DNA of 24,342 nucleotides, from contig CAMZBS010000028.1 of NCBI GenBank assembly GCA_947304695.1, positions 1-24,342 on the forward strand, read 5' to 3'. Shown piece by piece: positions 3,791 through 18,813 of this stretch. Made by a program: the position numbers and the translations under genes. The notes under the pieces were generated by a model. That model searched no databases and was not told the DNA's origin. It was given only the letters and a program-made list of their open reading frames with translations. The number at the start of each line of letters is the position of its first letter. The first letter of the stretch is position 1. This DNA is from an uncultured Prevotella sp. (lineage in GTDB: Bacteria > Bacteroidota > Bacteroidia > Bacteroidales > Bacteroidaceae).

Positions 3791-3840
3791 AGAAAGTAAA
3801 AAATCTTAGAACGACTGATACATTTTCCAGATATTTTGCG

Positions 3841-3848
3841 TATATTTG
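3841..3848 (+). promoter_or_regulatory. -7 element (TATATTTG) of the pectin operon
   Basis: TATATTTG matches TAnnTTTG and lies 29 bp before the ATG of the PL11 gene, giving a leader of roughly 25 nt. No clear TTTG -33 element sits 19-21 bp upstream, which would fit a promoter that needs an activator. It is divergent from the hflX-cluster promoter, about 75 bp away. Confidence 0.5.
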
Positions 3849-3877
3849 CAGACTGTTACCAAACAAGACTAATCTAC

Positions 3878-5755
3878 ATGACAAAAAAACTACTGATTGC
3901 CCTTCCCATCCTTTGCTGTGCAACGGCATTTGCGCAGCCCCGCTACGACTATTCGCAGCTACAGACTGAACGGCTGAACCGGGGTGTAGTGGCTATCCGC
4001 CAGGATGACGGCAAAGTGGCCGTGAGCTGGCGCATTCTGCGTGACGACCAGAAAGGAGAGCCCTTCGACATCTACCGTAACGGAGAAAAGCTGAACGCCC
4101 AGCCACTGACCAGCGGCGGCTCGTTCTTTGTTGACGAACATCCGCTTGAAGCCAAAGCCACCTACGAGGTGCGGGGCGGCAGCACTGCGGGCAGCTTCGA
4201 CTTCAACCCCCTGTCGCCTGCGGGCTACCTGCCTGTGAGCATTGAGAAGCCAGAGGGAGGAGAGACACCCGACGGCCGCCGCTACGGCTATTCGGCCAAC
4301 GACTGCAGCGTGGGTGATGTGGACGGCGACGGACAATATGAGATATTCGTGAAATGGGATCCGTCGAACGCCCATGACAATGCTCATGACGGCTATACCG
4401 GCCCTACTCTTTTTGACTGCTACCGCCTGAATGGGGAACGCCTCTGGCGCATCGACATGGGGCGCAACATACGCAGTGGTGCCCACTACGTGCCTTTCAT
4501 TGTCTATGACCTGGATGGTGACGGCAAAGCCGAGCTAATGGTAAAGACGGCCGACGGAACCCGTGACGGCGAAGGTCGCGTGATTGGCGATTCCCTTGTG
4601 GACTACCGCAACAAGGCGGGGCGCATCCTCGATGGCCCGGAGTTCATCAGCGTATTCAATGGCCTTACTGGTGCCGTCATGTACACGGCACCCTATATCC
4701 CTGAGCGCGGCAATGTGCGCCAGTGGGGTGACAACCGGGGCAACCGCTCAGAACGCTATCTGGCCGCCGTTGGCTACCTGGGCACCACAAACAATGGAAA
4801 GAGCGTTCCTTCTGCCATCTTCTGCCGAGGCTACTACACGCGTACCGTCATTGCTGCCTGGGACTGGGACGGAAAGAAGCTGATAAGTCGGAAGGTGTTC
4901 GACACAAATGCTCCAGGCGATGGCAGCTATGCCGGGCAGGGCAACCACAACCTGCGCGTGGCCGATGTGGACGGCGACGGACTTGACGAGATTACCTACG
5001 GCTCTATGGCCTTGGATCACGACCTAAGCGGCCTCTACAACACGGGCATGGGGCACGGCGATGCCATCCATTTGGTAGCCGACCCCAAGGACGACCGCCT
5101 GTATATCTGGGACTGCCATGAGAACAAACGTGACGGAAGCGACTTCCGCGACGCAAGGACGGGCAAAGTCGTATTCCAGATTAAAAGCCGAACCGACGTG
5201 GGACGCGCTATGGCCGCCGACATAGACCCCACCAATCCCGGTGTGGAGATGTGGAGTACCGACAGCCACGGCATAAGAACGATGACAGGAGCCCTTCTCA
5301 ATCCCCCCGAAGGAGGGACAAATGAAGACTCAAGACCTTTCATTCCTCCTTCGGGGGAAATAAGAAGGGGACTGCCTGTGAACTTCGGCATTTGGTGGGA
5401 CGGCGACCTGCTGCGCGAACTGCTCGACCATTCCACCGTATGGAAATACAACTGGGAAAGCAAGGGCGTTGATGCAGTGCAGAAGTTGGACGGCATGTTC
5501 AACAACGGCACGAAGTCGAACCCCTGCCTTTCAGCCGACATACTGGGTGACTGGCGTGAAGAGGTCATCGTACGCGACAGGGAGTCGACCGAACTGCGCA
5601 TCTGCGTCACGACCATCCCAACACAGTACCGCATCAACTGTCTCATGCAGGACATTCCCTATCGTCTCTCGGTGGCCTACCAGAACGTGGGCTACAACCA
5701 ACCGCCCGAAACCGGGTTCTACTTAGGCCCTGACCGTACTGACTATTTGAAATAA
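3878..5755 (+). CDS. Rhamnogalacturonan lyase, polysaccharide lyase family 11
   Basis: 625 residues from the ATG at 3878, chosen because MTKKLLIALPILCCATAFAQ is a good signal peptide; an upstream in-frame ATG at 3836 would overlap the promoter. It cleaves rhamnose-galacturonate bonds in the rhamnogalacturonan-I backbone by beta-elimination, outside the cell or in the periplasm. The mature protein has the PL11 beta-propeller with repeated calcium-type loops (VGDVDGDGQYEIFVKWDPSN, YDLDGDGKAELMVKTADGT, VADVDGDGLDEITYGSMALD) and the C-terminal block GLPVNFGIWWDGDLLREL, LSADILGDWREEV, YNQPPETGFYLG. About 26 residues (LLNPPEGG to GEIRRG) between the EMWSTDSHGIRTMTG block and GLPVNFG are extra and are encoded by an inverted-repeat element at 5292-5369. 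First gene of a PL11-GH97-GH28 operon. Confidence 0.93.
   Translation: MTKKLLIALPILCCATAFAQPRYDYSQLQTERLNRGVVAIRQDDGKVAVSWRILRDDQKGEPFDIYRNGEKLNAQPLTSGGSFFVDEHPLEAKATYEVRGGSTAGSFDFNPLSPAGYLPVSIEKPEGGETPDGRRYGYSANDCSVGDVDGDGQYEIFVKWDPSNAHDNAHDGYTGPTLFDCYRLNGERLWRIDMGRNIRSGAHYVPFIVYDLDGDGKAELMVKTADGTRDGEGRVIGDSLVDYRNKAGRILDGPEFISVFNGLTGAVMYTAPYIPERGNVRQWGDNRGNRSERYLAAVGYLGTTNNGKSVPSAIFCRGYYTRTVIAAWDWDGKKLISRKVFDTNAPGDGSYAGQGNHNLRVADVDGDGLDEITYGSMALDHDLSGLYNTGMGHGDAIHLVADPKDDRLYIWDCHENKRDGSDFRDARTGKVVFQIKSRTDVGRAMAADIDPTNPGVEMWSTDSHGIRTMTGALLNPPEGGTNEDSRPFIPPSGEIRRGLPVNFGIWWDGDLLRELLDHSTVWKYNWESKGVDAVQKLDGMFNNGTKSNPCLSADILGDWREEVIVRDRESTELRICVTTIPTQYRINCLMQDIPYRLSVAYQNVGYNQPPETGFYLGPDRTDYLK
5292..5369. 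repeat. 78-bp palindromic element inserted in frame in the PL11 gene
   Basis: Inner arms are a perfect 13-bp inverted repeat (CCCCCGAAGGAGG at 5304-5316, complement at 5345-5357). Outer arms are a 7-bp inverted repeat (CCCTTCT at 5292-5298, AGAAGGG at 5363-5369), with equal 5-nt unpaired bulges on both sides. The element is 26 codons long and keeps the reading frame. It looks like an intergenic repetitive element, not part of the lyase fold. Confidence 0.7.
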
Positions 5756-9192: not shown

Positions 9193-9231
9193 AACTGAGA
9201 GTTGAGGGCACACAGCTCTCAACTCTCAGTT
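9193..9231 (+). terminator. Hairpin terminator of the pectin operon
   Basis: A perfect 14-bp stem (9193-9206 with 9218-9231; arm AACTGAGAGTTGAG), with an 11-nt loop, runs into a short T tract. It starts 4 bp after the GH28 stop. The facing gene ends at 9249, so the hairpin may serve both strands. Confidence 0.85.
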
Positions 9232-18583: not shown

Positions 18584-18733
18584 CAAAGAATTCCCCAAAC
18601 AGCGTTGAAAACTTGCAATTTTTCGTTGAAATATTGTATCGCAGGGGCAGACAAATAGTAAAAAAACAGAGTGAAGCCTTGCAAAAGAGTCCAAAGAGCC
18701 TTATAAAGAGCAGAAAGAAAGCTTTTAAAACAA

Positions 18734-18813
18734 TTTTCTCGACGTGAGAATTTATTTTCACGTCGAGAAAATAGATTTCCACGTCGTGAAATAGTATTAT
18801 CACGTCGTGGAAA
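18734..18813. repeat. Two tandem 38-nt hairpins built on an ACGTCG core
   Basis: Hairpin 1 is a 14-bp perfect stem (18734-18747 with 18758-18771; arm TTTTCTCGACGTGA) with a 10-nt loop. Hairpin 2 (18776-18789 with 18800-18813; arm TTTCCACGTCGTGA) has the same geometry with one mismatched position. A 4-nt spacer separates them, so the period is 42 bp. They occupy the middle of the 369-bp gene-free stretch 18530-18898. That stretch otherwise holds only the Nudix promoter and A/T-rich sequence, and the hairpins lie between the propeller-gene stop and the Nudix promoter. A tandem intergenic repeat or terminator-like role is possible; the function is not known to me. Confidence 0.75.

Follow-up and report, generated by a model that had tools for sequence, protein, structure and literature searches.

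Introduction

Palindromic repeats that code for protein are known chiefly from Rickettsia. As described in PMC10969869 and PMC2229807, Rickettsia palindromic elements (RPEs) of 105-146 bp occur between genes and also, in frame, inside conserved ones, and are translated into peptide in host genes that apparently still work, the activity of an RPE-bearing guanylate kinase having been tested; the former, a 2024 review, also presents the same event as conceivable in other prokaryotes (PMC10969869). The subject of this report is a palindromic element of about 82-84 bp in the gene for a PL11 rhamnogalacturonan lyase of an uncultured Prevotella sp., carried on a 24,342-nt stretch of DNA (GCA_947304695.1, contig CAMZBS010000028.1, positions 1 to 24,342 of the forward strand; hereafter the window). 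Sequence similarity marks it as a degenerate member of a repeat family, termed family A here, that occurs in Prevotella-type genomes.

Family A shares with the RPEs its palindromic nature, its occurrence both in frame in conserved genes and between genes, a translated peptide and apparently working host genes, but it belongs to another phylum and its elements are shorter; going by the published descriptions of the RPEs (PMC10969869, PMC2229807), the two appear unrelated. Intragenic repetitive extragenic palindromic (REP) sequences have been described in several species, and the account in PMC3733652 includes hairpin dimers of the head-to-head type within open reading frames (ORFs), encoding 20-30 residues and found, among other genes, in uvrA, which also holds family A in a related genome (G497). 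Those dimers differ in carrying GTAG or CGTC tags (PMC3733652), which the window unit lacks, and family A, unlike them, hardly avoids coding sequence in the loci sampled; by eye, neither GTAG nor CGTC, the tags of two super-families, was found on either strand of 5285-5378. REP doublets forming hairpins (REPINs), as outlined in PMC6006769, likewise consist of two inverted REP units folding into a long hairpin, with a spacer that in G497 is also shared between copies; they are moved by REP-associated tyrosine transposases (RAYTs), whereas family A had no detected link to Y1 or RAYT enzymes. BrickBuilt of Porphyromonas gingivalis, a miniature inverted-repeat transposable element, is another small inverted-repeat element of the Bacteroidales, and its description as strictly intergenic in PMC10969869 sets it apart from family A. 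The element is best read as REPIN-like in anatomy and RPE-like in behaviour, and family A is classed here as a new family of palindromic repeats whose general type is known, set beside the RPEs by description; its variant feature is that single protein loops are filled by unrelated palindromes in different species. No account of protein-coding palindromes in Prevotella was apparent in the titles and abstract openings of the papers retrieved from the open-licence literature.

A nested inverted repeat in the lyase gene

The host gene runs along the forward strand from the first ATG at 3878 to 5755 and encodes 625 aa (the mechanically called ORF begins at a TTG at 3836); its product was matched by the Pfam families RGL11_C (1.8e-201) and RGI_lyase (1.3e-16). 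An earlier note on this DNA had claimed a nested inverted repeat at 5292..5369, with a 13-bp inner and a 7-bp outer pairing and 5-nt bulges, and this was present as described. The left arm, or unit 1 (5292-5316, forward strand), is composed of 7 + 5 + 13 nt, and the right arm, or unit 2 (5345-5369, reverse strand), is an inverted copy of it, complementary at 22 of 25 positions (88%) and separated from it by 28 nt. Pairing is perfect over the outer 7 bp (5292-5298 with 5363-5369) and the inner 13 bp (5304-5316 with 5345-5357), with a poorly paired 5-nt segment in each arm (5299-5303 and 5358-5362). The 78 bp first marked are, as was also claimed, a multiple of three, giving 26 codons in frame inside the ORF at 3836-5755. 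Comparison with other copies, by which the ends were set, extends the element beyond these to about 84 bp (about 82-84), at 5290-5373 of the forward strand, and the loop codons that it supplies, at 5291-5374 of the same strand, encode residues 472-499 (ALLNPPEGGTNEDSRPFIPPSGEIRRGL). As each arm is itself an imperfect hairpin, the element is made of two inverted hairpin units, of the window type TCCCCCCGAAGGAGGGA, around a 25-nt spacer at 5319-5343 (forward strand); a peptide predicted from its translation is TMTGALLNPPEGGTNEDSRPFIPPSGEIR.

The palindrome is beyond chance. Among ungapped 25-nt inverted repeats whose spacer is at most 60 nt, the best one paired at 22 of 25 positions in the window, as opposed to 17-19 of 25 in 20 first-order Markov resamples, and the paired-arm pattern was matched once in the window and never in 100 shuffles. 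An RNA of 83 nt was predicted to fold at -42.6 kcal/mol (z -5.1), a value that none of 200 shuffles equalled. The element had no match in Rfam up to an E of 0.1.

Family A in related genomes

The 13-mer arm was matched 38 times, with hits in 31 of the 200 genomes searched, as against 24 times for the control, and reading the contexts of these matches revealed the extended shared unit of family A, which 9 of the 30 loci L081-L110 fit within 3 mismatches; searches of plasmids and phages for the exact paired arms gave no match. The consensus hairpin unit is AGCCCCCCTCnnTCCCCCCGAAGGGGGGA, two such units standing inverted around a spacer of ~24 nt. With up to 2 mismatches, the core CCCCTCnnTCCCCCCGAAGGnGGGA was matched 108 times in 38 of 249 sampled genomes of the genus, against 3 matches for a reversed-pattern control, and order-wide it was present in 10 of 393 genomes, G497 included (control, 1), the family being enriched in the genus. 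The core-rich genomes G396 (26 matches) and G497 (10 matches) come from relatives and not from the species of the window. A 22-nt stretch of the left arm (window 5297-5318, CTCAATCCCCCCGAAGGAGGGA) recurs without change in a different gene, at locus L108.

Close parallels were found in G497, where uvrA (two copies) and queA contain in-frame doublets of 74 bp, and bipA and an RNase R-type gene contain wider pairs. The 74-bp pairs encode APL[NG]PPEGG-x8-[FI]PPSGGxRGA and the window element encodes ALLNPPEGG-TNEDSRPF-IPPSGEIRRGL; the two doublets of the uvrA gene (L185:3-2669) have opposite orientations and nearly the same peptide. In local alignment with the window element, scores of 62 and 47 were obtained for uvrA copies 2 and 1, 50 for queA and 48 for a copy sitting outside a long open frame (L318), the maximum being 29 in 3000 random pieces of PL11 loci of Prevotella type and 27 in 500 shuffled elements. 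The doublet architecture, with two inverted units around a spacer, is seen in both the window and G497; the spacer is conserved between three G497 loci and weakly so in the window. By eye, no target-site duplication of the kind that borders miniature inverted-repeat elements was seen beside the copies compared. The two window arms also share changes from the consensus at mirrored positions, which suggests either a subfamily of the species or hairpin-guided correction. That a repetitive palindromic element had entered the gene in frame without breaking it, as proposed in the earlier note, is supported by the family shared by related genomes, the near-identical peptide of G497 and the intact lyase, and the likeness in concept to the Rickettsia elements that it drew appears sound in view of the in-frame copies in unrelated conserved genes, the conserved peptide and a lyase that is otherwise intact.

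Occurrence within and between genes

Family-A sites were sampled from the fetched loci, leaving out those with more than 3 mismatches or with identical surroundings, and some of the resulting 51 sites represent the same gene in several species. In this set, 40 sites were flanked in both directions by 40 or more codons of open frame, as were 84% of positions drawn at random from these loci; with the threshold raised to 100 codons, 24 of the 51 sites qualified, compared with 56% of random positions. As these fractions are close to random, family A avoids coding sequence only slightly, and the sampled sites are not "mainly extragenic" in the sense applied to REPs and REPINs. An open frame is by itself no proof of a gene; Pfam families were found in 27 of the 30 scanned open frames running through family-A sites, including UvrA, RNB, QueA, BipA, cysteinyl-tRNA synthetase (CysS), glutamate synthase, Mrp-type NTPase, GH97 and Mur ligase. 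The likening to an intergenic element, made in the earlier note, fits only in part: 11 of 14 clusters fall outside such frames in the genome with most copies, G396, and 5 of 6 clusters are inside in G286. The consensus unit, as read from its sequence, is stop-free in five of six frames, which is likely why genes tolerate family A.

The PL11 loop and its other occupants

The relatives compared were 120 listed out of 7,987 matched PL11 protein clusters and 80 loci kept out of 254, 75 of the latter being labelled Prevotella or Prevotellaceae. Among 198 relatives, 242 columns were conserved at 97% or above and the window lyase retains 241 of them, and the gene therefore looks functional. Measured from the G-[IV]-[RYC] motif to the NFGIWWDGD segment, the length of the loop that contains the element was readable in 193 of 201 gathered sequences and came to 31 residues in 162, to 13-17 residues in 9 and to 34 residues in the window protein and in P0002, a near-identical cluster with three residue differences, one of them in the spacer. 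Since most relatives have a loop of similar length, the element replaces a loop rather than adding 26 residues. The view that some 26 residues unexpected in the PL11 fold are encoded here thus holds for their sequence but hardly for their number, and the clean insertion of 24-27 residues anticipated in an alignment was not seen against most relatives, the net gain being 3 residues; relative to the few short loops (e.g., that of P0030), the element adds about 20. The occurrence of the same loop in PL11 relatives across genera had been named as the finding that would speak against a mobile element, and the sole other carrier among the sequences read was P0002.

In an alignment with solved Bacillus PL11 proteins, the position of the element is occupied by a short turn. 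The loop precedes the conserved NFGIWWDGD and is not far along the chain from the segment in which the solved YesX and YesW diverge, a segment that sets exo versus endo action. The peptide would form a surface loop of the lyase; an AlphaFold2 model (mean predicted local distance difference test score 66, and below 50 across most of residues 440-625) was too poor for placing it. One PL11 protein, P0003, has 824 residues with a long internal segment repeated, which is either a real duplication or an assembly fault, and was excluded from trees and residue counts.

Other palindromes occupy the same loop elsewhere. At L012 and L029, the loop DNA carries a second sequence, family B (AGACCCACCCCCARCCCCTCCC), as inverted arms that pair perfectly over 15 and 24 bp; apparently just the outer ends of this sequence remain in the loops of L008 and L013. 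Judged from the peptide only, loops of a similar style are present in six clusters (P0006, P0022, P0028, P0053, P0077 and P0121). Scored on a 200-row PL11 tree built without the loop, the state "repeat in loop" (12 rows) required 10 changes; on a tree of 84 of these rows, excluding L040, L079 and many native rows, it required 9, at least six of these changes being forced by well-supported branches, and gains and losses are pooled in both counts. P0077 and L010 are 94% identical over the tree columns, but the loop of L010 is of the common type.

That family B is genuinely repetitive is clear from its 429 matches, spread over 15 of the 20 genomes chosen, against 3 for its reversed control. When all six frames are considered, 16 of its 30 clusters are flanked by 40 or more open codons in both directions. 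Up to 101 matches were counted in one genome, and the carriers include G028, G012, G010 and G026 (loci L112-L141). That the centre of the L012/L029 doublets is a repeat in its own right was considered and rejected, its pattern being present in one of 120 genomes, that of the query. In G003, the source of the closest syntenic locus (L003), a de novo repeat search over 420 kb gave a different palindrome, around AACGGGGCCCCCGTTGCA / CCGTTGTGTTGCAA (L152-L171), in which a 14-mer recurs up to 14 times over that length.

Loops of BipA and QueA

BipA/TypA, a conserved GTPase matched in 144 of 150 genomes of the genus, has one turn that is usually of 8 residues (KEIDGVKC type). In-frame inserts with inverted arms were found at this turn in eight genomes (L294-L300 and L304), in loci picked for a match split at the turn, and represent six sequence types, family A among them; the arms of the L297 insert are just 70% complementary. 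Of three loci picked for a long match, L301 and L302 have longer loops without inverted arms and L303 was unreadable. The turn was of the native type in the 30 best-matching loci, the remaining loci being judged by an unbroken match alone, and of the 120 BipA proteins closest to a query that itself carries an insert, a biased sample, 14 had the 8-residue turn. The QueA loop ranged from 7 to 33 residues, with several repeat-like peptides, in the 95 readable of 120 listed proteins (P0242-P0361); at the DNA level, it was read in the G497 gene alone (L200:1237-2547), whose loop holds the family-A doublet.

A possible generalization, offered tentatively, is that in Prevotella and its close kin, certain hairpin loops of conserved proteins (those of PL11, BipA and probably QueA) act as landing pads that are repeatedly filled in frame by sequence-unrelated palindromes, and that one common mechanism, which might be template switching or an insertion guided by hairpins, brings such repeats into coding sequence and routinely makes new loops. 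Prevotella is a large genus of the gut and rumen in which a given loop can be seen vacant in one species yet occupied in another, and such loops would allow testing of selfish palindromes as a source of loops, of which loops accept them and of what moves them.

Origin of the window element

With a probability of roughly 85%, the window segment is a family-A copy of long standing that has decayed in part, an inverted doublet of REPIN anatomy that sits in a permissive hairpin loop of PL11. The doublet of REP-like hairpins would have arrived by movement, as the spacers of three G497 loci are nearly identical and one of them is in the opposite orientation. It may then have settled, in a stop-free frame, in a permissive hairpin-loop stretch that in relatives encodes a different loop of much the same length, and decayed from the consensus, while selection would have kept the enzyme, so that the repeat is now translated as about 28 loop residues that the loop probably tolerates more or less neutrally. 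Some enzyme would have mobilised the doublet.

Several results weigh against this reading. Exact paired arms were found in 0 of 41 and 0 of 301 related genomes and in no viral contig, the pattern having been too strict, and a longer arm pattern that included the outer part gave 5 matches in 398 genomes, near its control of 3. The copy at L319 (G286) scored 29 against the window element, equal to the control maximum, and taken alone is no better than the control. The window spacer is weakly similar to the G497 doublet spacers (shuffle fractions of 0.008 to 0.05, in the same orientation). No second copy of the element was found elsewhere in the window, which was the own-species DNA searched, and no clean empty site was obtained from a close relative. 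No association with Y1 transposases was found, the Y1 domain PF01797 (E ≤0.001) being present in 17 of the 23 tested genomes that carry family A and in 14 of the 19 that do not, in counts that pool RAYTs with the IS200-type transposases that this domain also covers.

The same Y1 counts bear on the possibility that the element is a strict REPIN, meaning a non-autonomous doublet whose movement depends on a RAYT of its host. The inverted hairpin doublet, the shared spacer and the Y1 domains in most family-A genomes are all as such an origin would have them, but Y1 domains are as common where family A is absent, 39 Y1 loci, each taken with some 1.5 kb of flanking DNA in both directions, showed no family-A core even with 4 mismatches allowed (family B was found in three), and the GTAG and CGTC tags are lacking; a strict REPIN is thus conceivable but doubtful. 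The palindrome might instead have formed where it now lies, a GC-rich loop, with template switching or hairpin-templated mutation as the cause and no mobile family involved. Such an origin could produce the arm changes at mirrored positions through local correction and would need no second copy in the window. It is made very unlikely by the homology of the whole doublet to copies in other genes and genomes and by the identical 22-nt stretch in the L108 gene.

Whatever its source, the element might have been retained for a function, its messenger RNA hairpin tuning translation or stability or its loop altering access of substrate to the lyase. The strong predicted RNA hairpin and the position of the loop before NFGIWWDGD, near the YesX/YesW difference, would suit such a role, but with family copies in unrelated proteins and between genes, decayed units and relatives that manage without the element, we regard it as unlikely. 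The length of the loop, 34 residues against 31 in most relatives, is what an ordinary PL11 loop whose DNA is palindromic by coincidence would have; given a sequence unlike that of any relative read except P0002, and a palindrome and a homology that both exceed chance, coincidence is scarcely credible.

Neighbouring features

The neighbours of the lyase gene encode GH97, GH28 and GH10 proteins. At the very end of another locus (L037:12067-12133), an inverted repeat with perfect 32-bp arms and a 3-nt gap was noted, possibly an assembly end artefact. The window itself contains two further perfect inverted repeats, at 9193-9231 and 18733-18772 (14- and 15-bp arms), which are unrelated in sequence to the element and lie just outside long ORFs, positions that are terminator-like.
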